Shown here: positions 2,216 through 38,493 of the stretch, piece by piece | How the letters are laid out: every line of letters starts with the position of its first letter | Position numbering within the stretch: the first letter of the stretch is position 1 | DNA from: a virus | Direction: 5' to 3' (one strand) | DNA length: 38,629 nt | Virus record (IMG/VR): IMGVR_UViG_3300027759_000194 | Span: 1 to 38,629 of that record | Made by a program: the position numbers and the translations under genes | The notes under the pieces: generated by a model | The model's database searches: none | Seen by the model: only the letters and a program-made list of their open reading frames with translations | What the model was told of the DNA's origin: nothing

Positions 2216-2234
2216 AACACGAACAAAAAATTAA

Positions 2235-2242: not shown

Positions 2243-2246
2243 AGAT

Positions 2247-3668: not shown

Positions 3669-6600
3669 CGTAAGAATACAACTAGCAACTGGATATTTAG
3701 ATGTCAAAGAAGATACTGCTTTTCCTTTAAACTTTGGAGTAGCAGATATTCGTGATGTAAGCAAAAGAGCAGGAGCATTCTCTAAGACTATCACACTTGT
3801 AGGCAACAAGAATAACCACGACTTGCTTAACCACTACTACGATGTCAATATTGTAGCAGGAACATTCGACATCAATGCTTTGACTAAATGTACTGTAGTT
3901 CAAAATGGCATTCCGATTCTTGCAGATGCGTTTGTTCAGTTGTTGTCAGTTAATAAGATTCAAAAGGATACTTCATTTGAACAAGACATTGAATATTCTG
4001 TATTGATTAAAGACCAAGCAAGTACATTCTTTACTGACATAGATACTAAAGAGTTAAGAGACATTGACTATTCGGATTTGAATCACGCAATAAATTCAGC
4101 TAACATTTACTCTTCATTTACTCACGATGTAACTGACGGTTATAAATATGGCTTGACGTGGATGACTGGCAACTTGTATAATCTTTCTGATTTTAGACCT
4201 GCCATTTATGCAAAGGTTTATTTCGATAGAATCTTTCAGAATGCAGGATATAATTATGATTGGTCTTCTTTGGCTGCGTGTGGATTTGACAAGCTACTTA
4301 TTCCTTACAACGGTGATTTAGTTACGATTGATTATTCTAACTATACAGTTGAAGCAACTCACGCAGCAGATATTGTGAGTATAGTTCAAACACCATATAC
4401 TGCAGGTTTCACAGAGCCTTTAACTGGATTTGTTGAAATAGTAGATACTCAAGCTTTATTCAATCCTGCTACTGGAGTATACACTTGTGCTTTTCCGTTG
4501 TCAGGAGCAGAATGTGTTAATGTAGGAATTGACATAGTAGGAGATGTTCAACTTGTGAATGCTACTGCAGGAGATTTGCGTTTATTAAATACTTTCTTTT
4601 CATATACATCACTGCCAAAACAAAGATACTATTTAGAAATAAGAGTATTCAGAAGTGCAGTCGCTGCTTATCCAATAAGTACTTATTCTATACCATATGA
4701 CATTATGACTGATGGTATAAATTCTGCACCATTTGCACCAGGTACAACAACGATAATAAGTTTAAACAATAGCTATATTATTCCAGTCAGCAATGTATTA
4801 GCAGGGGAGCAATTAACGTTTGAGATAGGATTAAGAATTGAAAACTCTAACACTTCTTTACATTGGGTGGATAATGCAGTAGTAGATGCTATAATGACTC
4901 CTCAACTTAACTACACATCTTTAAAATTAAGTGCTAATATCTCATCTAATACTTTGTCGGTAGGTACACTTTTGAATATGAATCAGTTTGTGCCTGATAA
5001 AATTAAGCAGAAAGATTTTGTCAAGTCAATATTTCAGATGTTTAATCTATATGTTGAGATAGATACGAATAACGCAAATACACTTATACTAAAAACTAGA
5101 GATGACTTTTATGATAGTGGAGTTGAGAAAGATTGGACTTACAAACTAGCAAAAGACAAAGAGCAGATTCTAAACTTCTTGCCAGAACTAGCATCAAAGA
5201 AACTTATCTTAACATACAAGCAAGATAAAGATACACCTAACGTAACTTACTACGATACTACACGAGAAATATACGGTCAAGTGGAATATGTCTTTGACAA
5301 CGAGTATGTGAAAGGAATAGATACAAAAGAATTAATCTTCTCACCTTCACCTATTGGTCAAACAATATTCGGTGCTTATGTTCCAATTGTTGCAGGTAGT
5401 TCGCCTAAGACTAATCTTCGTATATTATACGATGGTGGTATGAAATCGTGCAGTCAATATACAATTATAGATTCAGGCTCTGCAGGCTTGTACGGAATCT
5501 TAGAATATCCTTTGATGCATCACTATGACGATGCGTTGAATCCTACGTTAGACATAAACTTTGCTTTGTGCGATTTTATGTTCTACGATGACTACACACC
5601 AACCGATAACAATCTTTATAATTCATATTGGAGACGTACAATAAGCCAAATCAATACTGGCAAGATGTTGATTGCTTACTTCAATTTGAAAGAAGATGAC
5701 ATTCAGAAGTTAAAGCTAAACGACAAGATTAGAATAGATAATTCTTGGTGGTCAATTAACAAAATTATAGACTACGATGCTAATAATAAGCAACTGACAA
5801 AAGTTGAATTATTATCTACAGATAGTGAGATAGATTTCGCACCATTTATAACGAAGAAACCAATTAAACCACACGGTGGATTTAGTGCAGTTTATACAGG
5901 AGTAAATCAAACAATAACAGATAATAGCAATACTGTAGGAATAGGTGCAGATGCTTATATTAAAGGCAAGAATAACATAATAATGCCGAACGTTAAATGT
6001 ATAATTGAAGGAGATGGATTTGTTGTAAGTGAAGATGGAATATATAGAGGAAACGATAACATAAATACTATAAATGACAATTACGCAAATGCTGATTTAA
6101 CATTTGACGACAATCGTAACCATTCGACAAATGGATTTGATTTAATAGAGTCAACAGATGGTGGTAATCTTCTACAATCATATAGAAAAATGACACCTTC
6201 AAATTCAGAATATGGATTTGAAGGATATAAAACAAAATATGATAGTACAAAAGTTCAATTTTATGCAGATAACAATCTAATATCTGAACTTGTTAAAACT
6301 GGATTTATTCACAAGTCATCTGTGACATATCCACAAGCAGTTAAGACTGCTAATTATTCATTTGTTGACTCTGATTATTTAGTTAATTGTACTGCAAATT
6401 CATTCAATGTAACGTTACCAACTGCAGTAGGTAGACAAGGTAAGACGTATGTAGTTAAGAATAGTGGAACTGGTACTATTTCATTCTTAGCAAGTGGTGG
6501 TCAATTGATAGATGGTGCTGCAAGTTGGTCTTTATCTCAATATGATTATTTTGTTGTACAATCAACGGGTTCAAATTGGGTTATTATATCTTCTAATACA

Positions 6601-8508
6601 CTTGGAGCAATAACACCTAGTGGATACTACGGGGCATTTCAGGATAATACTATACAAACTGCTGCTGCAATTAATACGCCTTATGCAATGAGATTTGGTA
6701 TTACTGATTTAAGTAACACGATAACAATTGTAAGTGATGGAAGTTATTTGACAAGAATAACAATTGCTAATACTGGCGTTTATAATATTCAATTTTCAGC
6801 ACAATTTGATAGAACAAATAGTGGCACTGATACTGTAGATATTTGGTTAAGAAAAAATGGAGTAGATGTTCCTGGAAGTGGTGGTAAAATAGTTTTAACA
6901 GGAGGAGTAATAGCATCTGCAATAATAGCAGCTTGGAACTATGTATTAGATGTAGTTGCAGGAGATTATTATCAAATAATGTGGAGTACACCAGATACTC
7001 ACGTTAGACTACTTTATGAAGCTGCGCAGACTACTCCATTTGCCCATCCATTAATACCATCCACTATATTAACTGTAACACAACAAGCAGGTATAATGGC
7101 AGGAACTGGGATAACAGCCTTAAATGGATTAAGTGCAGATGTTCAACTTTTATCAGTTGGAACAAGTGGAACAGATTTCAATATTTCATCATCAACTAAT
7201 ACACACACATTCAATCTACCAACTGCGAGCGCAACAAATAGGGGTGCATTAAGCTCGGCAAATTGGTCAACATTTAATGGTAAACAAAATCAAATAACAT
7301 TAACAACAACTGGAACTGGTGCTGCTACATTTGTATCAGACGTCTTAAATATTCCTACTCCTTCGAGTGGTGGTGGAAGTGGTATATTCGGTATATCAAA
7401 TTCAAGTGGTGTTTATACTTACTATGCTACATTAACCTTAGCAATGGCAGCTGCTTCAAGTGGTCAAACTATTGAAATGTTTGCAGATGTTACGGAAACG
7501 GGAGCTGTTTCAATTAATTTAAAAAATGGGGTTAATATAAATGGTAACGGTCATACATATACTTTAAATAATACAGGAACAACAAATTGTATTCAAGATA
7601 ATGGGGTTTCTTTGTATTGTGAATTATTTAATATTAAGTTTAAAAGAATGGGAGCGGCGACACCAAGTGCCACAGCTTCACTACCATTATATGTTACAAA
7701 TGCTGCGACTCAAATCATAAATAATGGCGTTAGTTTTGAGTCAACATTTAGTTTAGCAGCTGCGATTAGTGGAAAAGTAACGGGAGGATATTTTAGAGGA
7801 GAATTATCAGCTAATTTATCCTTAAATGTTTCATCGGGTGGAATTTTAACAAATGCGGATTTTTATTCAGCAGTTGGCTATGCTAATATTGCTGGCACGG
7901 CGGTTAATTGCTCATTTAGAAGTAACGGTAGTTACGCAGTAAATAGTGGTACTACTGCTAGATTAATTAATTGTACTGGATATTCAACCTCTAGTTATGG
8001 GATTTTTGGGAATGGTTATTTATTTAATTGCGTAGGTTATTCAACTGCAGGCTCTGGAATTTTTACATCTGATACAAATACTGTTCTTATGAATTGTTCG
8101 GGATATTCAAGTGCTGTTTGTGGGATACAAGGTATAGGTAACTTTATAAATTCAGTTGGAGAGTCTACAGCAAATGCGGGTATATTTGGGGCTTCAATAA
8201 TTAATTGTACTGCTAAAAGTTCAGGCGCAAAAGCTGCTTGGGTTTCAGTTAAAATGTATAATTCAAGTTCAATTTGTACTTGGAATAATGCAAGCGGTCA
8301 TTCGGTTGAATTACAAGCTAATAATACAGAAATTGTCGAATGTGTTTTACAAGTTACAAATGCTTCTGCAAATTCAATATATAGTGGTACTGCTTATGCT
8401 TGCAAATATGCAAATAATGCGTTTAAAGGAGCAACTACTTCTATTAATGCAAACATAACACAAGGCATGATAAATGTTCACGATTTACAAGGAAATATAA
8501 TAATTTAA
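3661..8508 (+). CDS. Giant tail/fibre protein with beta-helix tip, 1615 aa
   Basis: The N-terminal 700 or so residues look like a tail-anchoring structural part. Residues about 898-975 form a small beta domain (from SFVDSDYLVN to a TGSNWVII end), and about 988-1127 resemble a C1q/TNF-like jelly roll often seen in tail fibres. Residues about 1190-1209 carry the fibre linker NRGALSSANWSTFNGK. After a SSGGG linker near residue 1239 comes a 376-residue tip that reads as a right-handed beta-helix, with recurring NCxGYS...GI rungs at about 1440-1540. It should bind, and possibly degrade, the host surface glycan. No catalytic residues can be assigned. The tip is replaced by an unrelated one in the second copy (33378). 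Confidence 0.9.
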   Translation: MYNVRIQLATGYLDVKEDTAFPLNFGVADIRDVSKRAGAFSKTITLVGNKNNHDLLNHYYDVNIVAGTFDINALTKCTVVQNGIPILADAFVQLLSVNKIQKDTSFEQDIEYSVLIKDQASTFFTDIDTKELRDIDYSDLNHAINSANIYSSFTHDVTDGYKYGLTWMTGNLYNLSDFRPAIYAKVYFDRIFQNAGYNYDWSSLAACGFDKLLIPYNGDLVTIDYSNYTVEATHAADIVSIVQTPYTAGFTEPLTGFVEIVDTQALFNPATGVYTCAFPLSGAECVNVGIDIVGDVQLVNATAGDLRLLNTFFSYTSLPKQRYYLEIRVFRSAVAAYPISTYSIPYDIMTDGINSAPFAPGTTTIISLNNSYIIPVSNVLAGEQLTFEIGLRIENSNTSLHWVDNAVVDAIMTPQLNYTSLKLSANISSNTLSVGTLLNMNQFVPDKIKQKDFVKSIFQMFNLYVEIDTNNANTLILKTRDDFYDSGVEKDWTYKLAKDKEQILNFLPELASKKLILTYKQDKDTPNVTYYDTTREIYGQVEYVFDNEYVKGIDTKELIFSPSPIGQTIFGAYVPIVAGSSPKTNLRILYDGGMKSCSQYTIIDSGSAGLYGILEYPLMHHYDDALNPTLDINFALCDFMFYDDYTPTDNNLYNSYWRRTISQINTGKMLIAYFNLKEDDIQKLKLNDKIRIDNSWWSINKIIDYDANNKQLTKVELLSTDSEIDFAPFITKKPIKPHGGFSAVYTGVNQTITDNSNTVGIGADAYIKGKNNIIMPNVKCIIEGDGFVVSEDGIYRGNDNINTINDNYANADLTFDDNRNHSTNGFDLIESTDGGNLLQSYRKMTPSNSEYGFEGYKTKYDSTKVQFYADNNLISELVKTGFIHKSSVTYPQAVKTANYSFVDSDYLVNCTANSFNVTLPTAVGRQGKTYVVKNSGTGTISFLASGGQLIDGAASWSLSQYDYFVVQSTGSNWVIISSNTLGAITPSGYYGAFQDNTIQTAAAINTPYAMRFGITDLSNTITIVSDGSYLTRITIANTGVYNIQFSAQFDRTNSGTDTVDIWLRKNGVDVPGSGGKIVLTGGVIASAIIAAWNYVLDVVAGDYYQIMWSTPDTHVRLLYEAAQTTPFAHPLIPSTILTVTQQAGIMAGTGITALNGLSADVQLLSVGTSGTDFNISSSTNTHTFNLPTASATNRGALSSANWSTFNGKQNQITLTTTGTGAATFVSDVLNIPTPSSGGGSGIFGISNSSGVYTYYATLTLAMAAASSGQTIEMFADVTETGAVSINLKNGVNINGNGHTYTLNNTGTTNCIQDNGVSLYCELFNIKFKRMGAATPSATASLPLYVTNAATQIINNGVSFESTFSLAAAISGKVTGGYFRGELSANLSLNVSSGGILTNADFYSAVGYANIAGTAVNCSFRSNGSYAVNSGTTARLINCTGYSTSSYGIFGNGYLFNCVGYSTAGSGIFTSDTNTVLMNCSGYSSAVCGIQGIGNFINSVGESTANAGIFGASIINCTAKSSGAKAAWVSVKMYNSSSICTWNNASGHSVELQANNTEIVECVLQVTNASANSIYSGTAYACKYANNAFKGATTSINANITQGMINVHDLQGNIII

Positions 8509-8670
8509 ATAATATGGAAAATTTACAACAAATAGTAGTACAATTAACTACTGCACCATTTGAAAGAGCATTGGCACAATACGGAACTGATTTTATGCCA
8601 CAAGAGCAAAAAGAAGTGATTTACTCAGATTTAACAACTGAAGAAAAAGTCATATTTGATTCTTTTGTTG
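7377..8670 (+). other. Exchangeable fibre-tip cassette, beta-helix version
   Basis: This segment has no similarity to the corresponding segment 37094-38452. The left junction lies inside codons for a Gly-rich linker (GGTGGTGG) and the right junction lies within the last codons of the small gene at 8514. The cassette therefore carries a fibre tip and a small partner gene as one exchangeable unit. Confidence 0.8.
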
Positions 8671-8696
8671 AAATGATTAAAACACAACTTCAATAA
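8514..8696 (+). CDS. Small fibre-associated protein, 60 aa
   Basis: Starts five bases after the fibre gene and is replaced together with the fibre tip in the second copy, so it probably belongs to the beta-helix tip as an assembly partner or chaperone (inference from linkage). The sequence is acidic and helical, with no cysteine and no signal peptide. The last five codons (KTQLQ) and stop survive as a non-coding remnant at 38461-38478 in the other variant. Family not recognised. Confidence 0.6.
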   Translation: MENLQQIVVQLTTAPFERALAQYGTDFMPQEQKEVIYSDLTTEEKVIFDSFVEMIKTQLQ

Positions 8697-8699
8697 TCA

Positions 8700-8707
8700 C
8701 CATTATA
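8700..8707 (+). promoter_or_regulatory. CCATTATA start-site motif before the tape measure gene
   Basis: CCATTATA, then TAAT, then the ATG at 8712. The whole block is kept in the second copy at 38482-38489 although everything just upstream is exchanged. Confidence 0.55.
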
Positions 8708-8711
8708 TAAT

Positions 8712-10832
8712 ATGGCAGCATCACCGATTGAGATTCCTATTAAACTAAATGGCTTAGCAGCAATTAAAGCAGAACTTCGTGAACTGAAAGGTGACCTTGC
8801 AAATGCAACAGACCCTAAACAGATGCAGGAACTTGCTATGAGAGCAGGTGAACTGAAAGACCAACTTGCAGATGCTAATGAACAAGTAGCAGTATTCGCA
8901 TCGGGCAGTAAGTTTGAGCAGGTGTCGAATTCATTCGGTAGTATGAAAGATTCTTTGATGTCATTGGACTTTGAAGAAGCTGCAGGAAAAGCGAAGATGT
9001 TTCAGCAAACATTAGGAAGTATATCACCTGCAACGATTGGCAATGGTATTAAAGGGTTAGTTTCGGTTGTCGGTAGTTTATCTAAAGCCTTCATTCAGTT
9101 TGGTATTTCATTATTAGCGAATCCTATCTTTTTATTAGTTGCTGCGATTGTAGCCATTGTCGCAGTCATTGCTTTAGTAATGAATAAACTTGGAATCTTA
9201 AAGCCAATTCTTAATGCAGTAGGTAAAGTATTTGGTTGGATTGGTGATGCGATTGATATGGTTGTTCAAGCCTTCAAAGATTTGTGCGATTGGTTAGGCT
9301 TATCTAATAACGCAGCAGAAGATGCAGCAGATGCACAAGCAGCAGCAGCCGAGAAAACTGCAGCAGCATACGAAGAAAAGAGTGCAGCAGTAGTAGCAGG
9401 TTTCGATAGAGAGATTGAAATGGCTAAACTTGATGGTCAGAATACTGTTTATATGGAAAAGCAAAAACAGTACTGGCTTTTAAAAACTGCAGCTGCAAGA
9501 CTAGAAGCAATTAAACAGAAAATGATTGCTGCAAGATTGAGTGGTGATTTAGATGAAGAAGAGATTTTAGCTTTAAGAAAATCATATAACGAGCAAAGAG
9601 AAGTAGTCAAAGATTCTATGCATCAGATAGAAGTGATTGATAAGACTGAAGCTAATCGTAAAAAGGAAGATGCTAAAAAACAATCAGATGAAAGTTCTAA
9701 AAATGCTAAATCTAATGCAGATAAACAAAAAGAAATTAATGCTAAAAAGATTGAAGCAGAAAAGAAATACCAAGCAGATAGATTAGCAGCAGCAAGAATG
9801 TATCAGGACTTGGATATTCAGTTAATGGATGAAGGAGTAAAGAAAGAATTACTCGTTTCAAAACTTGCGTATCAGAGGCTCATTGAAGATACACAAGCTA
9901 AGGTTGCTACAACGAAACAAGAACAAGAAGAAAAGTTAAAGCTAATTGAGATGTATGGTCTTTTAGCAGGTGATGCAAGAGATAAGATAAATCAAAAAGA
10001 AGCTGAAAAAGAAAAAGAAAAGAATGCAGCAATAGCAGCTAAACAATTAGAGCAGCAGGATTTACTTTGGGCAATGAAAGAAGCAGCGAATCAAACTGCT
10101 AAAGAAAAAGAAGTAGCTGATTTATTAACAAAGAGTGAAGCAGATTTATTAGCTTTAGGAAGTAGTGCAGAAGCTGAATTATTTGTTGCTGAAGAAACTA
10201 AAAAGAAACTTGCTGAGATTGATGCTAAGTATGCAGATGCTGAAAAAGCAAATCATTTTAAACTATTAAGTGAGAAAGCAGATATTGCTTCTAAGTATGC
10301 ACAAAGTGTAAACTCTTTAGCTGAAGGAATGTTTGCAGTATCTAATAGCTACGGTAAACAAGATGAGAAATCAAAAGAAGAAAGAGCAAAGAGACAGTTC
10401 TACATTCAAAAAGCTATGAATCTAGGAATGGCTACAATAGATGGATATAAAGCAATTACTTCTTTCTTGTCAACAAATTCATTAACTGTTTTAGGTTTGC
10501 CAAATCCTGGTGCAATCGCAGGGCTTGTTGCTACTTCAGCAATGGCTGCAGGTAATATCTTAAAGATTGCTTCTGCGAGATATGGTGGTAAAGGAACACC
10601 AACTACAACTGCACCACCAACAACAGTAGGAGGAGGAGCAGGTGATACTTCTACACAAGCAGCTACTCCTAACGTTAATCTATTTGGAGCAAACAACAAC
10701 GCAAATACATTTGGTGCAAATGGTCAACAACAACAAGGTGGTCAAATGATAGTTAAAGCAGTAGTAGTAGAATCAGATATCACTTCTGTGCAAAACAAGA
10801 TGAGTAAAATTCAACAATCAGCAGTACTATGA
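8712..10832 (+). CDS. Tail tape measure protein, 706 aa
   Basis: A long, mostly alpha-helical, Ala/Lys/Glu-rich protein with a hydrophobic segment at about residues 127-162 (ISLLANPIFLLVAAIVAIVA), heptad-rich coiled coil through about 200-600, and a Gly/Thr/Gln-rich C-terminus near 630-680. This architecture is that of a tape measure protein, which sets tail length and enters the cell envelope on infection. At about 0.15 nm per residue it predicts a tail of roughly 100 nm (rule-of-thumb inference). It overlaps the next gene by four bases. The start follows the CCATTATA motif. Confidence 0.9.
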   Translation: MAASPIEIPIKLNGLAAIKAELRELKGDLANATDPKQMQELAMRAGELKDQLADANEQVAVFASGSKFEQVSNSFGSMKDSLMSLDFEEAAGKAKMFQQTLGSISPATIGNGIKGLVSVVGSLSKAFIQFGISLLANPIFLLVAAIVAIVAVIALVMNKLGILKPILNAVGKVFGWIGDAIDMVVQAFKDLCDWLGLSNNAAEDAADAQAAAAEKTAAAYEEKSAAVVAGFDREIEMAKLDGQNTVYMEKQKQYWLLKTAAARLEAIKQKMIAARLSGDLDEEEILALRKSYNEQREVVKDSMHQIEVIDKTEANRKKEDAKKQSDESSKNAKSNADKQKEINAKKIEAEKKYQADRLAAARMYQDLDIQLMDEGVKKELLVSKLAYQRLIEDTQAKVATTKQEQEEKLKLIEMYGLLAGDARDKINQKEAEKEKEKNAAIAAKQLEQQDLLWAMKEAANQTAKEKEVADLLTKSEADLLALGSSAEAELFVAEETKKKLAEIDAKYADAEKANHFKLLSEKADIASKYAQSVNSLAEGMFAVSNSYGKQDEKSKEERAKRQFYIQKAMNLGMATIDGYKAITSFLSTNSLTVLGLPNPGAIAGLVATSAMAAGNILKIASARYGGKGTPTTTAPPTTVGGGAGDTSTQAATPNVNLFGANNNANTFGANGQQQQGGQMIVKAVVVESDITSVQNKMSKIQQSAVL

Positions 10833-19422: not shown

Positions 19423-20457
19423 ATGTCGAATAATAGAATAAGATTGAAGCCAGATGAATTTGAAATAATTAAACAATATAGAGGAATTAAAACTGCTACT
19501 GATTCAGCAGATGTAAACGATGAAGATGTTAAACATGGATGGCTTAAGACTGATAAGGCAAGTTTATTCTTTAAGAATCCGAATTTTAAAACAGAAGTTG
19601 AACAAGGATTTTCTATAATACAAGAAGAAACAATTGAAGCTACAAAAAAGCATTCACCAAAGTATAAGAAGATAGAACGTGTTGAGGATAAAGATTCTAA
19701 CTTATTAGTAATTGATATTGCTGATTTGCACATCGGTAAACTAGCTAGTGCTTTTGAAACTGGAGAAGATTATAATTGTCAGATTGCAGTACAAAGAGCA
19801 AAAGAAGGATTAATAGGTATCATTCAAAAAAGCAAAGGATATACGATAGACAAGATTCTTTTTGTAGCAGGAAACGATATTCTACACACCGACAATACAA
19901 AGAGTTCTACAACTGCAGGAACACCACAAGACACAGATGGTATGTGGTATGATAATTTTCTAACTGCAAAACAGTTGTACATTGACTTATTAGAGATGTT
20001 AGTACACATTGCAGATGTTGAAGTGGTTTACAATCCATCTAATCACGATTATACACACGGATTCTTTTTATTGCAGTTAATTGAAGCACATTTTAATAAA
20101 GCTGAAAACATCGTTTTTAACGTGGACTTGAAACACCGTAAAGCATTCCAGTACTATGATAACTTTATAGGAACTACACACGGTGATGGTGCAAAATTAG
20201 AAGCATTGCCATTGCTATATGCTACAGAACATTCTATACTATGGGCAAATACTAAACACAGATATGTATATACGCATCACATTCATCACAAATCAGGCAA
20301 AGACTTCCCTGGTATCACGATTGAAAGCCTACGTTCACCAAGTGGTACAGATTCTTGGCATCACAGAAACGGTTTTTGTGGTGGTGTAAAAGCAGTAGAA
20401 GGATATATACATTCAAAATATAATGGTCAAGTTGCTAGGTTAACACATATTTTTTAA
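19423..20457 (+). CDS. Calcineurin-like metallophosphoesterase, 344 aa
   Basis: All metal-binding blocks of the superfamily are present in order: DLHIGK near residue 101, GND near 150, NHD near 207, THGDG near 252 and the HHIHH cluster near 286. Such phage enzymes are DNA nucleases or nucleotide phosphohydrolases. The first 90 residues form a helical N-terminal domain without a recognised motif. Flanked by a terminator upstream and the control region downstream, it forms its own unit. No clear promoter box is seen in 19359-19422. The substrate is unknown. Confidence 0.85.
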   Translation: MSNNRIRLKPDEFEIIKQYRGIKTATDSADVNDEDVKHGWLKTDKASLFFKNPNFKTEVEQGFSIIQEETIEATKKHSPKYKKIERVEDKDSNLLVIDIADLHIGKLASAFETGEDYNCQIAVQRAKEGLIGIIQKSKGYTIDKILFVAGNDILHTDNTKSSTTAGTPQDTDGMWYDNFLTAKQLYIDLLEMLVHIADVEVVYNPSNHDYTHGFFLLQLIEAHFNKAENIVFNVDLKHRKAFQYYDNFIGTTHGDGAKLEALPLLYATEHSILWANTKHRYVYTHHIHHKSGKDFPGITIESLRSPSGTDSWHHRNGFCGGVKAVEGYIHSKYNGQVARLTHIF

Positions 20458-20465
20458 TATATTTG
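20432..20465 (+). promoter_or_regulatory. Promoter of putative small RNA A
   Basis: TATATTTG at 20458-20465 begins one base after the stop codon's TAA and matches the host -7 box. A TTG at 20432-20434 lies 23 bases upstream, slightly longer than usual. Confidence 0.5.
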
Positions 20466-20469
20466 CAGA

Positions 20470-20533
20470 GTTAAAATTTTTGTTTTGTTTAGGTTTGGAT
20501 TGAATGAGGAGGTGTAATAGCCTCCTTTTTTTT
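20470..20533 (+). ncRNA. Putative small RNA A (or a promoter-proximal terminated leader)
   Basis: From the expected start about five bases after the -7 box, a transcript of about 64 bases would run to a rho-independent terminator: AGGAGG and CCTCCT around TGTAATAG, then eight T. There is no reading frame of note. It may equally be only the terminator of the metallophosphoesterase gene, with a fortuitous promoter box upstream. Confidence 0.4.
20507..20533 (+). terminator. Rho-independent terminator after the metallophosphoesterase gene / RNA A
   Basis: A six-base GC-rich stem with an eight-base loop and eight T. The hairpin GGAGGTGTAAxAGCCTCC recurs almost exactly at 24014-24031. Confidence 0.8.
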
Positions 20534-20540
20534 GTGCCTA

Positions 20541-20560
20541 AAGTGCAGTATAGTACACTT
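20541..20560. promoter_or_regulatory. Operator-like palindrome 1
   Basis: AAGTGCAGTATAGTACACTT is a 20-base palindrome with two mismatched pairs. Its core AAGTGCAGTATAGTA recurs at 20602. No regulator can be assigned from the sequence. Confidence 0.55.
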
Positions 20561-20601
20561 GTGAAGGAGAAAAACACTTAATAAACGTAATAAACACTTA
20601 A

Positions 20602-20621
20602 AAGTGCAGTATAGTATACTT
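20602..20621. promoter_or_regulatory. Operator-like palindrome 2
   Basis: AAGTGCAGTATAGTATACTT shares 19 of 20 positions with palindrome 1, 61 bases downstream. Between the two sites, TAAACACTTAA-type half-sites occur at about 20573 and 20592, so the block has about six AAGTG/CACTT half-sites. Confidence 0.55.
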
Positions 20622-20796: not shown

Positions 20797-20826
20797 TTGT
20801 AGTTCTAAACATTATATATATATTTG
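20797..20826 (+). promoter_or_regulatory. Early operon promoter, Bacteroidetes type
   Basis: TTG at 20797-20799 and TATATTTG at 20819-20826, separated by 19 bases, fit the -33/-7 consensus of Bacteroidetes vegetative promoters. The first gene starts 30 bases downstream after an A-rich leader. This is probably the main early promoter and depends on the host polymerase. Confidence 0.75.
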
Positions 20827-20856: not shown

Positions 20857-21093
20857 ATGAAAAACATTAAACAAATCACAAAGCTAACTAACCAAGCAAT
20901 TGACTTGCTAGACTTAGCAGAACAATCAAATCAAAAGTACGATTCAATGTGTAGATACAACGTAGAAATTGCTGCACCTAATGGATTCAAGCCAAAATCA
21001 GATTTAGTAATCGAGTTTCAAATGGTTGTTACCAAGAGAATTATGGCTAGTTATTTTAGAGTTATTAACGAGATTAAAGCATTTGAGTTATGA
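20857..21093 (+). CDS. Early protein of unknown function, 78 aa
   Basis: First gene of the early operon, helical, with two basic clusters (KNIKQITK near the N-terminus, VTKRIMASYFR near 58-68). Leader AACAAAACAAAATG lacks a Shine-Dalgarno, as usual in Bacteroidetes. Overlaps the next gene by four bases. First early genes often act against host functions, but nothing in the sequence shows this. Confidence 0.65.
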   Translation: MKNIKQITKLTNQAIDLLDLAEQSNQKYDSMCRYNVEIAAPNGFKPKSDLVIEFQMVVTKRIMASYFRVINEIKAFEL

Positions 21094-22273: not shown

Positions 22274-22807
22274 ATGAAAAACGAAACATTCGAAGATGCA
22301 ATTCCAAGACCAAACGGAATTTATTACAAGCTACATTTAGCTAAACAAGAAATCGGTAAGATTAATAAATCTGCTGACAATCCATTTTTTAAATCTAAAT
22401 ATGCAGATTTAAACACTATTCTAGATGTAGTTGAACCGATACTACATAAGTACAATTTACTGTTATTGCAACCTATTATGAATGGATGTGTGCATAGTGT
22501 AATAGTTGACATTGAAAGCGGTGTAGATATTAATGCTGAGATTAAACTACCTGAGTTAAACGACCCACAAAAGTTAGGAGGATGTATTTCTTATTTTAGA
22601 CGTTACACACTTCAAAGTTTGTTATCTTTAAGTATGCAAGATGACGATGCAAACGATGTGACTAAACACGTTAATAAGAAACCTACGATTACTATTGACC
22701 GATTCGAAAATGCTTTAACAGCAATTCAGGATGGAAAGGCGAAAAAAGAGGATTTATTTAAGTTTGAACTCACAGACCTTCAAAAGTCAGCATTACAATT
22801 ATTATGA
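22274..22807 (+). CDS. erf: ERF family single-strand annealing recombinase, 177 aa
   Basis: Residues about 36-56 (NPFFKSKYADLNTI...VVEPIL) and the GGCISYFRRYTLQSLLSL...DDDAND block at about 98-124 are the hallmark of ERF proteins. It anneals complementary single strands and works with the exonuclease two genes downstream, as in other phage recombination pairs. The C-terminal third is helical and ends just inside the next gene. Such recombinases favour mosaic exchange, which fits the strain differences seen between the two copies here. Confidence 0.88.
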   Translation: MKNETFEDAIPRPNGIYYKLHLAKQEIGKINKSADNPFFKSKYADLNTILDVVEPILHKYNLLLLQPIMNGCVHSVIVDIESGVDINAEIKLPELNDPQKLGGCISYFRRYTLQSLLSLSMQDDDANDVTKHVNKKPTITIDRFENALTAIQDGKAKKEDLFKFELTDLQKSALQLL

Positions 22808-24511: not shown

Positions 24512-24522
24512 TTATATTTGCA
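24492..24522 (+). promoter_or_regulatory. Promoter of putative small RNA B, Bacteroidetes type
   Basis: TTTG at 24492-24495 and TATATTTG at 24515-24522, exactly 19 bases apart, the same geometry as the early promoter at 20797-20826. Confidence 0.7.
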
Positions 24523-24527
24523 TATAT

Positions 24528-24608
24528 TCTCGTGCAGGGGATTCAAAAGATTTAGTTTAAGCTCTTATCTGATAGGTCTGCACACCTTGACGATAGGAGC
24601 TTTTTTAT
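24528..24608 (+). ncRNA. Putative structured small RNA B with pseudoknot-like pairing
   Basis: About 80 bases from the predicted start to a terminator. Stem 1: GTGCAG (24534-24539) pairs perfectly with CTGCAC (24580-24585). Stem 2: AAGCTCTTATC (24561-24571) pairs with GATAGGAGCTT (24594-24604), one G-U pair, followed by six T. The strands interleave, so both stems together form an H-type pseudoknot; otherwise they compete. It may be a stand-alone small RNA or a leader controlling the gene at 24647. No frame of note inside. Confidence 0.6.
24561..24608 (+). terminator. Terminator hairpin of RNA B
   Basis: An 11-base stem with a 22-base loop that contains the CTGCAC strand of stem 1, followed by TTTTTT. 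The large loop is unusual for a simple terminator. Confidence 0.65.
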
Positions 24609-29221: not shown

Positions 29222-29378
29222 ATGGATAGCATTAAGCACTTTTGTTTTATCTATTGGAATGACTGTAGCAATATGGAATGATTACGAATACACAAACAAG
29301 TTTGTTGCTGCTGCGATTCTTAGTCACATAATATTTTTATTAATAAACGAATATGAGAAAAATGCAAATAAAGGATGA
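29214..29378 (+). CDS. Small membrane protein, 54 aa (complete copy)
   Basis: MSRWIALSTFVLSIGMTVAI and KFVAAAILSHIIFLLI give two hydrophobic segments. It overlaps the sigma-like gene by eight bases and the following gene by 26. This is the complete homologue of the fragment at the window's start. Function unknown; no lysis genes are near. Confidence 0.6.
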   Translation: MSRWIALSTFVLSIGMTVAIWNDYEYTNKFVAAAILSHIIFLLINEYEKNANKG

Positions 29379-29589
29379 ATATAAAGGCAAGACTGTCATT
29401 GTGTATAATAGTGTCTTAGGGAATCAGAATGTAATAATTGATAAAATACTACCAAAGGATTACGATTGGTATTCAAGAAACGGATTAGGTCACATCTTTG
29501 AAGCTGAAGGAACAATTGTTTGGAGTGATGAATTGACGGAAGAAGAAGTAGTTCCAGTAGTGAAAAAAACACGAACTAAGAAGAAGTGA
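29353..29589 (+). CDS. Unknown conserved protein, 78 aa, second copy
   Basis: The homologue of 87-323. The first 45 residues are nearly the same and the basic Lys/Arg tail is identical, but residues 50-60 change from VQATIKPTF to AEGTIVWSD. Same overlap with the membrane gene upstream. Confidence 0.7.
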   Translation: MRKMQIKDEYKGKTVIVYNSVLGNQNVIIDKILPKDYDWYSRNGLGHIFEAEGTIVWSDELTEEEVVPVVKKTRTKKK

Positions 29590-29600
29590 ATCTCGACTAT

Positions 29601-29744
29601 ATGATAGCATCAGTCAAAGAATACATATTCCAACAGAAAGGAATATACATAGAGATAGATGCAAACTTCATTAAATCGGATGTAAGACAGATTCAACTAC
29701 TTTATCAAGCATATAACTTTATACAAAATGCCAATACCAAATAA
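29601..29744 (+). CDS. Small conserved protein, 47 aa, second copy
   Basis: The homologue of 335-475. Conservation of frame with mostly synonymous or mild changes supports coding. Here its end overlaps the HAD-phosphatase gene by 17 bases. Confidence 0.6.
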   Translation: MIASVKEYIFQQKGIYIEIDANFIKSDVRQIQLLYQAYNFIQNANTK

Positions 29745-30189
29745 AGGAGAACATAAAATAGAGTATCTTCAAAGATGTATGTCTGATGAAGAAACCAAAT
29801 CTAAATATCCTGATGAATCTCAAAGATTCGCAGTATGTAATTCTCTATGGTATGAAGATAAGATGTCAGCTTTGACAAAGTATAAAGATTCATTTGCTAC
29901 TAAAAAGATTAGTTTTGATTATGATGGTGTATTAAGTACATCGAAAGGAACTGAACTAGCAAAACGTTTAAAAGACGAAGGAAACACTATCTACATTATT
30001 TCAGCAAGAGGAAGCAAAGATAATATGCTATCTAGAGTAGAAAGCATTGGAATACCAACTTCAAGAATATATGCTACTGGAAGCAATAAAGCGAAAGTAG
30101 AGAAGATTAAAGAACTAGGTATAGATATTCATTATGATAATAATCCTGATGTAATAAAAGAATTAGATGGAATTGGAAAACTTTTCTGA
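29728..30189 (+). CDS. HAD-superfamily phosphatase fused to an N-terminal Cys-rich motif, 153 aa
   Basis: Residues about 1-44 have the pattern PIPNKGEHKIEYLQRCMSD...RFAVCNSLW, a short motif otherwise found in phage head-associated proteins. Residues about 60-150 are a HAD phosphatase: FDYDGVLS with Asp64 and Asp66, Ser in YIISARGS, Lys in NKAKVEKI, and a final HYDNNPDV acidic motif. It could dephosphorylate nucleotides or DNA ends. It is absent from the first copy, where only the flanks remain. It overlaps the genes on both sides, so its insertion or loss reshaped both borders. Confidence 0.78.
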   Translation: MPIPNKGEHKIEYLQRCMSDEETKSKYPDESQRFAVCNSLWYEDKMSALTKYKDSFATKKISFDYDGVLSTSKGTELAKRLKDEGNTIYIISARGSKDNMLSRVESIGIPTSRIYATGSNKAKVEKIKELGIDIHYDNNPDVIKELDGIGKLF

Positions 30190-30370
30190 AAAGAAATATT
30201 ATATAGCAGTAATCAATCAAGAATTACATTCTAAGCAATGGAGTAAGTTAAAGAAATGTTTAAAAGCAACTGATTCTTCTTATTGTGTTTTTTACTCAGA
30301 TGTGAAGGAATTGGAATTCAATCAAGTTACACAAAATGTGTACCACGAAATGTGTTATTTAGAAAACTAG
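30167..30370 (+). CDS. Unknown protein, 67 aa, second copy of the 393-653 gene
   Basis: Begins MELENFSEKKYYIAVINQEL, with ATG inside the end of the HAD-phosphatase gene. From KYYIAV on it parallels the first copy. This short N-terminus is more likely the ancestral one than the 28-residue extension in the first copy. Confidence 0.6.
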   Translation: MELENFSEKKYYIAVINQELHSKQWSKLKKCLKATDSSYCVFYSDVKELEFNQVTQNVYHEMCYLEN

Positions 30371-30383
30371 AAAAATACGAATA

Positions 30384-30800
30384 ATGGCAAAACATAAGTA
30401 TATAGAAACACCTGAGAAACTATACGAACTATTCCAAGAGTATAAGACAAGCATAAAGCCAAGAGAGATACAGAAAGCAACTGCAACAGGAGTAAAGTCT
30501 GAGTTTCATACACCACCGTTTACAATGGAAGGATTTGAGAACTTTTGCTTTATAAATTATAGCACAATAAATCATTACTTTGATAATCCTGAAGGAGCAT
30601 ATGACGCATATCGTACTATCTGTTCACATATAAAGAAAGTCATTCGTCAAGACCAAATCGAAGGAGGTATGGTTGGGCAATTCAATCCAAGTATTACACA
30701 ACGATTAAATTCATTAACTGAAAAAACGGATGTGACATCTCAAGGTGAAAAGATAAACGAAATCAAAGTCACTATTATAAGTGGAAATCAAAGCAACTAA
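30384..30800 (+). CDS. Terminase small subunit (probable), second copy
   Basis: 138 residues, homologous to 667-1083. The N-terminal 10, the block KPREIQKATATGVKSEFHTP, and the last 45 residues are nearly unchanged. Residues 55-85 differ strongly (FCFINYSTINHYFDNPEGAY instead of YCEDNICFVHQYFVNQNEAY). The variable part could reflect different packaging-site preference (inference). Confidence 0.8.
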   Translation: MAKHKYIETPEKLYELFQEYKTSIKPREIQKATATGVKSEFHTPPFTMEGFENFCFINYSTINHYFDNPEGAYDAYRTICSHIKKVIRQDQIEGGMVGQFNPSITQRLNSLTEKTDVTSQGEKINEIKVTIISGNQSN

Positions 30801-31932
30801 AATCTTTGAGCAGAATTATACTGCCTTATCTGATTCATCTACACGATTCATAATCAATCAAGGTGGCTCACGTTCAAGTAAGACCTATTCACTTTGTCAG
30901 GTTATAATCGTCTACTGCCTTCAGAATCCAAACAAGGTAGTATCAATAGTTAGGAAGACGTTCCCTGCTTTAAGAGCAACTGTGATGCGTGACTTCTTTG
31001 AGATAATGAAAGACTTAGAAATCTATGAGGTGACGAGCCATAATAAGAGTGAGAATATATATCGGTTTGGCAATGGCTCTATCGTTGAATTCTTCTCAGT
31101 AGATGACGAGCAGAAGATAAGAGGTCGTAAACGTGATATAGGTTGGTGTAATGAAGCCAATGAACTTTGGTTTGAAGACTTCCAACAGTTGAATATGAGA
31201 ACTGAGAATACAATGATATTCGACTATAATCCTTCCGATAGTTCAAGTTGGTTATACGAACTGCCTGAAGAAGAAAGCATACTAATAAAATCTACATATA
31301 AAGATAATCCATTCCTACCTGATTCAATCAAGCGACAGATAGAAGACCTTAAACGAACAGACGAAGCATTGTATCAAATCTATGCATTAGGTGAGAAGAC
31401 AACAAGCAAAACAAACATATATAGTAATTGGCAATTTGTCAAAGAAAGACCTGCTAGGTTTGAATCATTTTGCTATGGACTTGACTTTGGGTACAATCAC
31501 CCAACTGCATTGATGAAGGTGTGGTGGAATGAAAAAGACATCTTTGTTGAATCAGTAATCTATGAATCATATCTAACGACTACGATGCTGATAGAGAGAA
31601 TGAATGAGATAGGAGTGGATAAGAATGCTGATATACTTGGTGACCATTCAAGACCCGAAATAATAGCAGAGATACAGATAGCAGGGTACAATATAAACAA
31701 CGCAACGAAAGGAGTGAAGAAAGGAATTGACAATGTGAAGACATTCGGTGTGATATGCCTTGACAATCCAAATCTTAAAAGAGAATACGAAAACTACAAA
31801 TGGAAGAAGGTAGGTGATAGTATTACAGATGAGCCTATCAAATTGTTTGACGATGCGATGGATGCAATCCAGTATGCAGGTCGATTCATAAAAGATAATT
31901 ACTACACAGATGATTCATACTTTAGTTTCTAA
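30781..31932 (+). CDS. Terminase large subunit, second copy
   Basis: 383 residues with the same Walker A (28-35), catalytic Glu125 and nuclease acidic residues (Asp235, Asp288, Asp357/358/361) as the gene at 1064. Only about four residues differ (Ala20Ser, Ala97Gly, Tyr248Trp, Leu to Ile near 325), while the DNA has many silent changes, so the copies have diverged under strong constraint. Confidence 0.97.
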   Translation: MEIKATKIFEQNYTALSDSSTRFIINQGGSRSSKTYSLCQVIIVYCLQNPNKVVSIVRKTFPALRATVMRDFFEIMKDLEIYEVTSHNKSENIYRFGNGSIVEFFSVDDEQKIRGRKRDIGWCNEANELWFEDFQQLNMRTENTMIFDYNPSDSSSWLYELPEEESILIKSTYKDNPFLPDSIKRQIEDLKRTDEALYQIYALGEKTTSKTNIYSNWQFVKERPARFESFCYGLDFGYNHPTALMKVWWNEKDIFVESVIYESYLTTTMLIERMNEIGVDKNADILGDHSRPEIIAEIQIAGYNINNATKGVKKGIDNVKTFGVICLDNPNLKREYENYKWKKVGDSITDEPIKLFDDAMDAIQYAGRFIKDNYYTDDSYFSF

Positions 31933-31951
31933 AACACGAATGAAATAAACA

Positions 31952-31959
31952 CCATTATA
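31952..31959 (+). promoter_or_regulatory. CCATTATA start-site motif, second copy
   Basis: CCATTATA, then AGAT, then ATG 31964. The octamer and spacing are unchanged from the first copy although bases just upstream differ. Confidence 0.55.
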
Positions 31960-31963
31960 AGAT

Positions 31964-33385
31964 ATGGCAATAACATCAATAGCAGCACCACAAGATTTTA
32001 CACCTGCGTATAATCCGATTAAGTTTATAGTAGATGGCACGAACAAGAATCTACTAGGTTACAAGTATATCTTTGACATCTATCCACAAGGTGGAGCAAC
32101 GAAGATAGCAGAGTATAGAGTGTTTCCTGAGTTCGGTACTGGATACGGTAGAATAGATATATCTAAATTACTTCAAACGAAAGTAAGTTATGATAGTGAG
32201 TTATACGGAACTGTTACCTATCCTGCTATCAATTCATTTTACAAATACGATGTGAAGATAGGCGAGGAGTATATTACTTCAATTACATATACTTCTTCAT
32301 TGTCTAATAACTCAGGTAACGTAAGAATAACTGCTACACATTCGTATGTAGTAGGTGACCAAGTTAGAATAAATCAAGCAGATGGTGGAGCAGCTAATCC
32401 AAACTTAGAAGGACTGTTTACCGTTTTGTCAATAGTTGGTACTACTTCTTTTACTGTAAACTCTCTTTGGTCTCAAGTAACAAATGCTGCGATAGATGGA
32501 ACGGTAAGCTACTCAGATAACAGAAAGACTATTACACCAAATATATTACTTGAAGAAAGAAAGATAGTGTTTAATGGTGCGAGGTCATTTTTAGAGTTTA
32601 TAAATTACGACCAAAGTGTCTATATCTTGAATAATGCTAGAGATTATCTTTTAACTGATATGCCACTAGAAGGATTCTATTCTACTTTATATCAAGACTT
32701 AATAATCAACTTTGGTAATGCCAATTCGATTACAGGCTTTGCTTATTTTGAGAATGACGGTGGTAACTTATTCAGTAAAGTAGTAGATGCAAATTCTTAT
32801 ATTGCAGGTGTACCAGTAGGAACAAATAACTTTGGTACTTTGACTTTGGTAAGTGGTGTAGGTAATCTTATAGAGACTAATACACAATACTATGACTTTT
32901 GGTATGCTAATAGTTTAGGCAATCAATGTTCAAGAAAATATCGTGTTAACATTGACTATCGATGCTTAATAGAAGATTACTCTTTATTGTTCTTAGATAG
33001 AATGGGAAGTTATGGAAGTTTTGCTTTTCAGTTGAGAGCATACGAAAAAGGCAATGTGCAGAAACAAGGATTCAATAGAGATATTCAAGGAAGTGTAGTG
33101 AGTCAAGAATGGGTGTATGCACCTGAAGCATTCGGACAAAACATCTATTCATCAAATGTTACTAAAACTTTAGACTTGAATACTAATTGGATGACAGAAG
33201 AGATGTCGATATACTTTGAGCAGTTGATTACTTCGCCATTAGTTTACATAAAATTGCCTAATAATATTTATGCAGCAGTTACAATAAATGAGAATTCGTT
33301 TGAAGTAAACAATCAAAGAAACAAGAAACTATTTAAGAAGTCAATAACAGTTACATACGCAAATCAAAATACTGTCAATGTATAA
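31964..33385 (+). CDS. Late structural protein, second copy, 473 aa
   Basis: Same length as 2247-3668. Scattered single differences; the concentrated change is at about residues 373-392 (RDIQGSVVSQEWVYAPEAFG here). From nucleotide 33197 to the end the two copies appear identical. Confidence 0.75.
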   Translation: MAITSIAAPQDFTPAYNPIKFIVDGTNKNLLGYKYIFDIYPQGGATKIAEYRVFPEFGTGYGRIDISKLLQTKVSYDSELYGTVTYPAINSFYKYDVKIGEEYITSITYTSSLSNNSGNVRITATHSYVVGDQVRINQADGGAANPNLEGLFTVLSIVGTTSFTVNSLWSQVTNAAIDGTVSYSDNRKTITPNILLEERKIVFNGARSFLEFINYDQSVYILNNARDYLLTDMPLEGFYSTLYQDLIINFGNANSITGFAYFENDGGNLFSKVVDANSYIAGVPVGTNNFGTLTLVSGVGNLIETNTQYYDFWYANSLGNQCSRKYRVNIDYRCLIEDYSLLFLDRMGSYGSFAFQLRAYEKGNVQKQGFNRDIQGSVVSQEWVYAPEAFGQNIYSSNVTKTLDLNTNWMTEEMSIYFEQLITSPLVYIKLPNNIYAAVTINENSFEVNNQRNKKLFKKSITVTYANQNTVNV

Positions 33386-36300
33386 CGTAAGAATACAACT
33401 AGCAACTGGATATTTAGATGTCAAAGAAGATACTGCTTTTCCTTTAAACTTTGGAGTAGCAGATATTCGTGATGTAAGCAAAAGAGCAGGAGCATTCTCT
33501 AAGACTATCACACTTGTAGGCAACAAGAATAACCACGACTTGCTTAACCACTACTACGATGTCAATATTGTAGCAGGAACATTCGACATCAATGCTTTGA
33601 CTAAATGTACTGTAGTTCAAAATGGCATTCCGATTCTTGCAGATGCGTTTGTTCAGTTGTTGTCAGTTAATAAGATTCAAAAGGATACTTCATTTGAACA
33701 AGACATTGAATATTCTGTATTGATTAAAGACCAAGCAAGTACATTCTTTACTGACATAGATACTAAAGAGTTAAGAGACATTGACTATTCGGATTTGAAT
33801 CACGCAATAAATTCAGCTAACATTTACTCTTCATTTACTCACGATGTAACTGACGGTTATAAATATGGCTTGACGTGGATGACTGGCAACTTGTATAATC
33901 TTTCTGATTTTAGACCTGCCATTTATGCAAAGGTTTATTTCGATAGAATCTTTCAGAATGCAGGATATAATTATGATTGGTCTTCTTTGGCTGCGTGTGG
34001 ATTTGACAAGCTACTTATTCCTTACAACGGTGATTTAGTTACGATTGATTATTCTAACTATACAGTTGAAGCAACTCACGCAGCAGATATTGTGAGTATA
34101 GTTCAAACACCATATACTGCAGGTTTCACAGAGCCTTTAACTGGATTTGTTGAAATAGTAGATACTCAAGCTTTATTCAATCCTGCTACTGGAGTATACA
34201 CTTGTGCTTTTCCGTTGTCAGGAGCAGAATGTGTTAATGTAGGAATTGACATAGTAGGAGATGTTCAACTTGTGAATGCTACTGCAGGAGATTTGCGTTT
34301 ATTAAATACTTTCTTTTCATATACATCACTGCCAAAACAAAGATACTATTTAGAAATAAGAGTATTCAGAAGTGCAGTCGCTGCTTATCCAATAAGTACT
34401 TATTCTATACCATATGACATTATGACTGATGGTATAAATTCTGCACCATTTGCACCAGGTACAACAACGATAATAAGTTTAAACAATAGCTATATTATTC
34501 CAGTCAGCAATGTATTAGCAGGGGAGCAATTAACGTTTGAGATAGGATTAAGAATTGAAAACTCTAACACTTCTTTACATTGGGTGGATAATGCAGTAGT
34601 AGATGCTATAATGACTCCTCAACTTAACTACACATCTTTAAAATTAAGTGCTAATATCTCATCTAATACTTTGTCGGTAGGTACACTTTTGAATATGAAT
34701 CAGTTTGTGCCTGATAAAATTAAGCAGAAAGATTTTGTCAAGTCAATATTTCAGATGTTTAATCTATATGTTGAGATAGATACGAATAACGCAAATACAC
34801 TTATACTAAAAACTAGAGATGACTTTTATGATAGTGGAGTTGAGAAAGATTGGACTTACAAACTAGCAAAAGACAAAGAGCAGATTCTAAACTTCTTGCC
34901 AGAACTAGCATCAAAGAAACTTATCTTAACATACAAGCAAGATAAAGATACACCTAACGTAACTTACTACGATACTACACGAGAAATATACGGTCAAGTG
35001 GAATATGTCTTTGACAACGAGTATGTGAAAGGAATAGATACAAAAGAATTAATCTTCTCACCTTCACCTATTGGTCAAACAATATTCGGTGCTTATGTTC
35101 CAATTGTTGCAGGTAGTTCGCCTAAGACTAATCTTCGTATATTATACGATGGTGGTATGAAATCGTGCAGTCAATATACAATTATAGATTCAGGCTCTGC
35201 AGGCTTGTACGGAATCTTAGAATATCCTTTGATGCATCACTATGACGATGCGTTGAATCCTACGTTAGACATAAACTTTGCTTTGTGCGATTTTATGTTC
35301 TACGATGACTACACACCAACCGATAACAATCTTTATAATTCATATTGGAGACGTACAATAAGCCAAATCAATACTGGCAAGATGTTGATTGCTTACTTCA
35401 ATTTGAAAGAAGATGACATTCAGAAGTTAAAGCTAAACGACAAGATTAGAATAGATAATTCTTGGTGGTCAATTAACAAAATTATAGACTACGATGCTAA
35501 TAATAAGCAACTGACAAAAGTTGAATTATTATCTACAGATAGTGAGATAGATTTCGCACCATTTATAACGAAGAAACCAATTAAACCACACGGTGGATTT
35601 AGTGCAGTTTATACAGGAGTAAATCAAACAATAACAGATAATAGCAATACTGTAGGAATAGGTGCAGATGCTTATATTAAAGGCAAGAATAACATAATAA
35701 TGCCGAACGTTAAATGTATAATTGAAGGAGATGGATTTGTTGTAAGTGAAGATGGAATATATAGAGGAAACGATAACATAAATACTATAAATGACAATTA
35801 CGCAAATGCTGATTTAACATTTGACGACAATCGTAACCATTCGACAAATGGATTTGATTTAATAGAGTCAACAGATGGTGGTAATCTTCTACAATCATAT
35901 AGAAAAATGACACCTTCAAATTCAGAATATGGATTTGAAGGATATAAAACAAAATATGATAGTACAAAAGTTCAATTTTATGCAGATAACAATCTAATAT
36001 CTGAACTTGTTAAAACTGGATTTATTCACAAGTCATCTGTGACATATCCACAAGCAGTTAAGACTGCTAATTATTCATTTGTTGACTCTGATTATTTAGT
36101 TAATTGTACTGCAAATTCATTCAATGTAACGTTACCAACTGCAGTAGGTAGACAAGGTAAGACGTATGTAGTTAAGAATAGTGGAACTGGTACTATTTCA
36201 TTCTTAGCAAGTGGTGGTCAATTGATAGATGGTGCTGCAAGTTGGTCTTTATCTCAATATGATTATTTTGTTGTACAATCAACGGGTTCAAATTGGGTTA

Positions 36301-38147: not shown

Positions 38148-38452
38148 AAAATAAATATGGCGATTTTAATAAAAGCAAACAAAAAAAAGAGTATTACAAT
38201 TTCAGGTACTGAGTTGAATTTAGAAAGCATCTATGCACGACTAGAATTCGCTGCGAGAGCAGATGGTAAAACGTTAGAAATTGCAGTAGCTACATACGCA
38301 AGTAGAACTACTTTTGAAAGTAATCAACCTATCTTTACAGATGTTCAGCAAGGCACATTCACAGTTGAGATATTACCAACTGAGATGCAAGACTTGAAAT
38401 CGGCTAATAAATACGCTAGTTTAGCATTCGAGCAACTTGGTTATTCAACTGA
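37094..38452 (+). other. Exchangeable fibre-tip cassette, YadA-like version
   Basis: Alternative to 7377-8670. It carries the fibre tip and a 101-residue partner gene. The left edge is in Gly codons; the right edge lies next to short shared sequence (GAAAT-ATT-AAAACAC with a mismatch and an indel) that leads into the tape measure leader. Confidence 0.8.
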
Positions 38453-38462
38453 AATCATTTAA
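38157..38462 (+). CDS. Fibre-associated protein, 101 aa
   Basis: Unrelated to the 60-residue gene at the same place in the first copy. It begins MAILIKANKKKSITISGTEL and contains LEFAARADGKTLEIAVATYA and EQLGYSTEII at the C-terminus. Linked to the YadA-like tip, so probably an assembly partner or baseplate cap for it (inference). Start follows an A-rich leader nine bases after the fibre stop. Confidence 0.65.
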   Translation: MAILIKANKKKSITISGTELNLESIYARLEFAARADGKTLEIAVATYASRTTFESNQPIFTDVQQGTFTVEILPTEMQDLKSANKYASLAFEQLGYSTEII

Positions 38463-38478
38463 AACACAACTTCAATAA
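38461..38478 (+). pseudogene. 18-base relic of the 60-aa gene
   Basis: AAAACACAACTTCAATAA is identical to 8679-8696, where it encodes the last codons and stop of the gene at 8514. Here it overlaps the stop codon of the 101-residue gene and is otherwise untranslated. It suggests that this variant once carried the other partner gene, or that both variants use this block as a recombination boundary. Confidence 0.6.
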
Positions 38479-38481
38479 TCA

Positions 38482-38489
38482 CCATTATA
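38482..38489 (+). promoter_or_regulatory. CCATTATA start-site motif before the tape measure, second copy
   Basis: CCATTATA, then TAAT, then ATG 38494; the whole block is identical to 8700-8714 despite the exchange immediately upstream. Confidence 0.55.
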
Positions 38490-38493
38490 TAAT

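Follow-up and report, generated by a model that had tools for sequence, protein, structure and literature searches.

Does the gap behind a phage metallophosphoesterase (MPE) gene encode an RNA of its own, and what would such an RNA act upon? The window, meaning the whole stretch of 38,629 nucleotides analysed, is an IMG/VR virus record (IMGVR_UViG_3300027759_000194) with Bacteroidota-type promoter boxes. The first-pass annotation had placed a promoter box at the MPE stop codon and a terminator about 70 bases further on, and both are seen: TATATTTG at 20458–20465 follows directly on the TAA at 20455–20457, and the terminator ends at 20533 (Table 1). We infer from sequence that this unit, RNA A, is probably an independently transcribed phage small RNA (sRNA) that represses the phage's own early and replication genes through their start codons, its transcription, repressive action, timing and purpose all being part of that inference.

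The RNA A terminator has an 8-pair stem, a 6-nt loop and a T8 tract that runs through to 20533, and the segment 20466–20533 folds with z = -3.0. As described for F. psychrophilum, the box occupies positions -12 to -5 (PMC9723704), and the RNA is therefore expected to start at ~20470. The RNA A box is preceded by a TTG at a distance of 23 nt; for the box at 20819 the corresponding distance is 19 nt. The window contains 83 copies of TANNTTTG, against 59 +/- 7.5 expected. Pairs of box and terminator on the + strand of the window end at three distinct terminators, and 20 dinucleotide shuffles give 0–2 (mean ~0.7); because shuffled windows yield such pairs, their number is insufficient to prove the RNA A unit. 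By count alone the unit is mildly unusual, and it is sequence comparison with relatives that lifts it above chance.

Table 1. Features of the window discussed in the text, with window coordinates.
Feature	Position	Strand	Remarks
MPE / SbcD-like 'DNA repair exonuclease' gene	19423–20457	+	PHROG 704, E=1.4e-67; upstream of the unit, anchor for comparison
Bacteroidota-type -7 promoter box TATATTTG of RNA A	20458–20465	+	Abuts MPE TAA; conserved in relatives
RNA A, predicted transcript	20470–20533	+	5' end inferred from published box position in F. psychrophilum
U-rich segment UUUUUGUUUUGUUU of RNA A	20477–20490	+	Replaces the CATAG seed in the window clade; complementary to A-rich early start regions (suggestive only)
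Intrinsic terminator of RNA A	20506–20533	+	Stem 20506–20527, then T run
TATATTTG box, likely early-operon promoter	20819–20826	+	TTG 19 nt upstream
First early gene	20857–21093	+	AAACAAAACAAAA adjoining AUG is a perfect 13-nt complement to window RNA A
ERF recombinase gene	22274–22807	+	Orthologues targeted in two relative clades; in the window, 14-nt match with wobble pairs across AUG
RNA B, box-RNA-terminator unit with loop-loop (kissing) pairing	24513–24606	+	Unrelated to RNA A

Relatives were collected in two sets by MPE protein alone, the unit playing no part in retrieval. We took 80 of 521 MPE loci for set 1 and 80 of at least 589 for set 2, and removed L054 (set 1) and L306, L310, and L339 (set 2) because their MPE match stopped short of the gene end. 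This left 157 loci (the window, 79, and 77), of which 152 extend at least 70 nt beyond the MPE gene; the other five were set aside. With a pattern that tolerates one-letter box variants, 98 of the 152 loci carry box and CATAG, nine (the window included) carry a window-type variant, and 45 carry none, a class that takes in loci whose units are degenerate or lack the seed (L288, L298, and L305). The recurrence of box, CATAG-bearing RNA, and terminator at 98 of 152 MPE loci bears out the earlier view of a promoter-RNA-terminator unit as opposed to a stray terminator.

The box reads TATATTTG in 20 of 22 (the other two GATATTTG), 18 of 18, and 16 of 19 (the other three TACATTTG) aligned distinct units, and CATAG is invariant across all three alignments; the rows of these alignments were selected for a box-like pattern, and no such selection was applied to the raw locus listings of relatives. 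The box is degenerate in L060, L076, L318, and L332. Box and RNA remain joined when 20–50 nt, or an inserted gene of ~700 nt, separates the unit from the MPE stop. Between clades the hairpin changes in sequence, unrelated hairpins taking its place, with pairing kept by compensatory change; in the A3 hairpin, double changes occur at 7 of 10 pairs, a value reached by 0 of 500 shuffles. Conservation of the hairpin only, beside a degenerate box, had been named as the observation that would speak against the unit. Since the box is kept and the letters of the hairpin are not, the relatives display the reverse. RNA A thus has two traits of a base-pairing sRNA, namely its own promoter, recognized by sequence only (the box kept in relatives and window), and its own intrinsic terminator (hairpin and T run, with compensatory changes).

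Other genes are also found at this site. L046, L047, L082, L111, L289, and L295 have a gene between MPE and RNA A or its expected place, and these genes begin, by eye, like GIY-YIG homing endonucleases (MIGIYKITSP...); L055 and L077 hold an apparent remnant of a GIY-YIG-like gene insertion. Two tRNA genes, one of 121 nt, occupy the place of RNA A in L049 (7243–7456). In L334, a box, CATAGTTTTG, and a terminator occur 1599 nt after the MPE gene; this locus otherwise has no RNA A, and it has no AACTATG start.

A further trait of base-pairing sRNAs, a short seed complementary to several mRNAs encoded elsewhere, is found in the relatives. The conserved 5' part of their RNA A, UCAUAGUU or UCAUAGCG, is antisense to several early-gene start codons (AACUAUGA or CGCUAUGA), and RNAs of the large clade open with UUCAUAGUU(A/G), which complements AACUAUGAA exactly. 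In set 1, which was not dereplicated for these counts, the context CTATGAA occurs at 124 of 386 early starts of seed-bearing phages (75 with the full AACTATGAA), 0 of 159 of unit-less phages, and 3 of 107 of window-type phages. Among structural starts it occurs at 0 of 382 in the same seed-bearing phages and 4 of 89 in unit-less ones. We also counted starts in 61 representatives, obtained by clustering MPE at 95% identity (63 clusters, reduced to 57 by removing those with <900 nt downstream) and adding L303, L292, L293, and L286 in order to keep seed variants. CT is the dinucleotide that stands out before ATG in these representatives. CT-ATG makes up 169/584 early starts in unit phages, 12/211 in unit-less, and 2/53 in window-type phages, and 17/271, 6/111, and 2/20 structural starts, respectively (Fisher, early 4.6e-14, structural p = 1; per-genome test, 39 v 17, p = 1e-7), the phages being related and the counts not fully independent. 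Targets seen encode small early proteins, ERF, exonuclease-like, helicase-like, and methylase proteins; the ERF and helicase families were identified in the window, and the other names were assigned by eye. The unit pattern is present in L452, L418, L428, and L436, which have no AACTATG starts.

Seed and targets vary together. In a second clade the seeds are CATAGTT, CATAGCT, and CATAGCG. The bases before CT-ATG are AA/GA at 53 and CG/TG at 13 starts in phages with seed TT, and 3 and 42, respectively, in those with seed CG (p = 1.6e-15; relatedness among the phages inflates this and the other seed-target p-values). Placing the five labels on the MPE tree takes 12 changes, where shuffled labels take 30, and the seed-target match is therefore not one event. 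When seeds were swapped, pairing of at least 8 bp was found at 34.5% of early starts with a genome's own seed and 19.7% with other-class seeds, the own seed being better in 30 of 39 genomes (p = 1.2e-5). ERF orthologues read TTTAACT-ATGAA beside UUCAUAGUUA (11–12 bp) and TTACGCT-ATGAA beside CAUAGCGUAA (up to 13 bp), both contexts spanning 9–13 contiguous pairs, and AATAAAA-ATGAA or AAAAACA-ATGAA in unit-less relatives. ERF is no target in the clade-2 UU phages (seed CATAGTT), and CATAGTT phages retain 13 CGCTATG among 97 CT-ATG starts.

The same association is present in loci held out from these counts. Scans were made for CG-type and TT-type units and only new loci were counted, with 44 already seen, 16 duplicates, and 3 short ones removed. 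CT-ATG stands at 104 of 243 early starts in 20 CG-type loci (60 of them CG) and at 29 of 154 in 13 TT-type loci (16 of them AA); the two-by-two table is 19, 4, 10, and 65 (p = 1.2e-9). For four TT-type loci of different context, L427, L432, L438, and L450, tblastn with ten window proteins gave no match on the fragment, and AACTATG accounts for 3/11, 3/11, 5/9, and 1/8 of their downstream starts, respectively.

The window itself belongs to a clade from which the CATAG seed has been deleted, reading CAG-----AGUUA where relatives have CAGUUCAUAGUUA. No CATAG seed is present in the window RNA, and a search of the whole window found no AACTATGAA. Pairing in this clade was scored by duplex energies and by contiguous runs against shuffled RNAs. 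The U-rich segment of the window RNA matches 13 nt at 20857; with wobble pairs included, it matches 14 nt across the AUG at 22274 and 18 at 24308. Over threshold were 13 of 55 of the window's own early starts (shuffles 4.8; 1 of 60 as high), 3 of 30 structural starts (17 of 60 shuffles as high), and 14 of 96 early starts of unit-less relatives. The duplex energies of the window RNA did not separate early from structural starts. In the window clade, then, the unit persists and its U-rich segment may pair with A-rich start regions, for which the complementarity is suggestive at best. L298 and L305 likewise retain box and RNA with the seed gone (ACTCGTTAAATTAG and ACGAGTTAAATTAG), and a few CT-ATG starts remain in them; these are possible independent seed losses, resembling the window clade.

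Could the hairpin merely serve as an insulator between the MPE operon and the early control region, as a stray terminator with an incidental box? The site is at a gene end, hairpin sequences are freely replaced with pairing kept, as in any terminator, and box-less gene-end terminators are present elsewhere in the window (the scan gave + strand terminators without a paired box at 14964, 15538, 19352, and 24036). This reading is contradicted by the conservation of box and seed: the box and CATAG segment are conserved above all other parts, and they shift together away from the stop codon, making a stray terminator extremely unlikely. Sites acting at the level of DNA would have AACTATGA as an asymmetric operator, to which a phage repressor binds both at the unit and close to gene starts. 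Stoperators are a parallel for asymmetric repressor-bound operator sites, and short repeated sites in one orientation across early genes fit such an arrangement. An operator would not, however, need the observed lock to the reading frame. The ATG of the motif is the in-register start codon, the first ATG of its open reading frame, in 35/35 CGCTATGA and 35/41 AACTATGA sites, as compared with 472/1752 for all ATGA. Antisense copies of the two sites number 1 and 4, the CG motif having one and three of the four antisense TCATAGTT copies being the RNA unit itself (the fourth is in L290), such that the sole regular opposite-strand copy is the RNA unit. As the sites are locked in register to start codons, action on mRNA starts is favored over DNA operators, which we regard as very unlikely.

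The unit's position just upstream of the early control region, on the same strand, also agrees with a leader or attenuator, in which a promoter and built-in terminator ahead of the early region would be read through upon antitermination; lambda pR'/6S-like or put-like arrangements are parallels. Against this, a promoter box distinct from that of RNA A precedes the early genes at 20819, the sequence beyond the terminator in L045 is unrelated to that in its close relative L042, and complementarity to start codons is left unexplained, so that a leader has very little probability. Similarly improbable is a start consensus shared by chance, with AACTATGAA as a favored start context and the RNA match accidental or the RNA acting on host genes. 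Flavobacterial start preferences, as described in PMC6847099, include an A at -3 that helps, and AACU has A at -3. But the CGCU class carries G at -3, contrary to that preference, the context is missing from structural genes of the same genomes and from early genes of unit-less relatives, and contexts switch together with the seed.

The first-pass annotation had counted RNA A as the third unit of its kind in the genome and had suggested a family of regulatory transcripts. A second real unit exists, RNA B, but a third was not confirmed, the candidate at 27635 being a weak hairpin running into the gene at 27682. RNA B consists of a promoter box and a hairpin, followed by a linker and by a terminator whose stem encloses another hairpin, and its two hairpin loops are complementary over 7–8 nt. 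Across 28 RNA B sequences, pairing is kept in 97.9% of 613 cells and double changes number 181, versus at most 43.5% and 17 in the slid control. RNA B occurs in relatives (e.g., L102:4213-4315 and L059:9301-9405), whether or not they carry RNA A, and Rfam does not contain it. The idea of a family does not hold, in that RNA A and RNA B share neither sequence nor architecture and RNA B occurs in phages lacking RNA A. We also considered a pairing of window RNA A with RNA B (GTGCAGGGG v CCCCAGCAC) and rejected it; the letters are absent from window RNA A, and GTGCAG belongs to the loop-loop pairing of RNA B.

Two other features of the window deserve mention. Between RNA A and the early promoter are two near-palindromic 21-mers of the AAGTGCAGTATAGTACACTT type (20540–20560 and 20601–20621), which in sequence resemble repressor operators; of 8 window-type loci checked, 5 have the first 21-mer, and L045, L052, and L053 do not. 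The ends of the window, 1–8847 and 29267–38629, repeat each other (474–7376 v 30192–37093 at 95.5%; 1–468 at 91.2%). The genome is likely ~29.7 kb with a strain-variant overlap from assembly, in agreement with many related contigs of 29–32 kb.

The closest known parallels to RNA A are phage antisense RNAs. P1/P7 c4 and P22 sar are likewise small phage RNAs that pair with phage mRNA and lower translation, the c4 pairing site being around the ribosome-binding site, as described in PMC12197685. These have a single target, ant, whereas RNA A is predicted to have several early genes as targets, with its seed on the AUG, in a phylum without Shine-Dalgarno sites. Lambda OOP RNA is also short (77 nt; PMC12197685), has its own promoter in the control region, and lowers expression of a phage gene. 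Unlike OOP, which is cis-antisense to cII, RNA A is in tandem with its predicted targets, on the same strand as the early genes. Trans-acting bacterial base-pairing sRNAs such as flavobacterial Rfp18, as reported in PMC9723704, similarly have their own promoter, seed, and terminator, with one region predicted for several mRNAs; RNA A differs from them in being phage-borne, in being aimed at the phage's early genes, and in having its seed at or near the 5' end, on the start codon. No Rfam family scored above the gathering threshold for RNA A, and nothing relevant appeared at E<=1, the matches being plastid and microRNA ones far below threshold. A search of 50,697 cultured phage records gave no credible match to RNA A, and a search of cultured phages found no near-identical DNA; the nearest cultured MPE genes, compared as annotated neighbourhoods only, are those of Flavobacterium phages (54%), S-CBS2 (52%), and Elizabethkingia phage TCUEAP1 (48%). 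A 21-nt pattern matched 101 viral stretches, and among the 80 matches listed some were plainly chance ones inside other sequences; 62 host-genome matches to it were scattered across unrelated phyla and were taken as chance. A literature search, with most subscription papers and preprints outside its reach, found single-target phage RNAs (c4, sar, and OOP) and prophage sRNAs but no multi-gene start-codon sRNA.

Our preferred reading, repression of early genes by RNA A, would operate as follows. A host-type promoter would produce an RNA of ~40–65 nt, with a 5' antisense seed followed by an intrinsic terminator. In most relatives (U)UCAUAGUU or (U)CAUAGCG forms the seed, placed close to the 5' end or directly at it, and this seed is predicted to pair across the start codon (AACUAUGAA or CGCUAUGA). 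The RNA would start at or just ahead of the seed, and the seed would therefore be free; in some CG-class RNAs it lies ~15 nt further in. Predicted targets are the genes for small early proteins and for ERF recombinase; some phages add an exonuclease gene, a helicase-like gene, or a methylase gene to these. The phylum lacks Shine-Dalgarno pairing, and A at -3 favors initiation in F. johnsoniae, as described in PMC6847099. In the absence of such pairing, a duplex covering the AUG should block initiation, with early and replication genes most likely being repressed. Because they have G at -3, where A favors initiation, CG-class boxes look to be kept for the RNA and not for the ribosome. The level of RNA A would rise with genome copy number, as it has its own, unregulated-looking promoter, and that rise could either act on replication genes as a dosage brake or bring about an early-to-late switch. 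A co-infecting phage would likewise be subject to RNA A if it belonged to the same seed class.

The phages with RNA A are uncultured, marine, and Bacteroidota-type, with the unit located just ahead of early genes. A broader and more tentative proposal is that they possess a viral self-regulon, in which one tiny RNA may be a common off-switch for the phage's own early genes sharing a start-codon box. Seed classes (UU, CG, and intermediate CU) and boxes may co-evolve, acting as copy-number brakes and cross-immunity groups, in a design that may recur in lineages without detectable shared proteins. Known phage antisense RNAs typically control a single gene, whereas here a multi-gene regulon would be readable from sequence. 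The starts of Bacteroidota-type phages do without Shine-Dalgarno pairing, making the start codon an obvious point of action, and the naturally matched seed and target classes make self-programming of phages by small RNAs directly testable.
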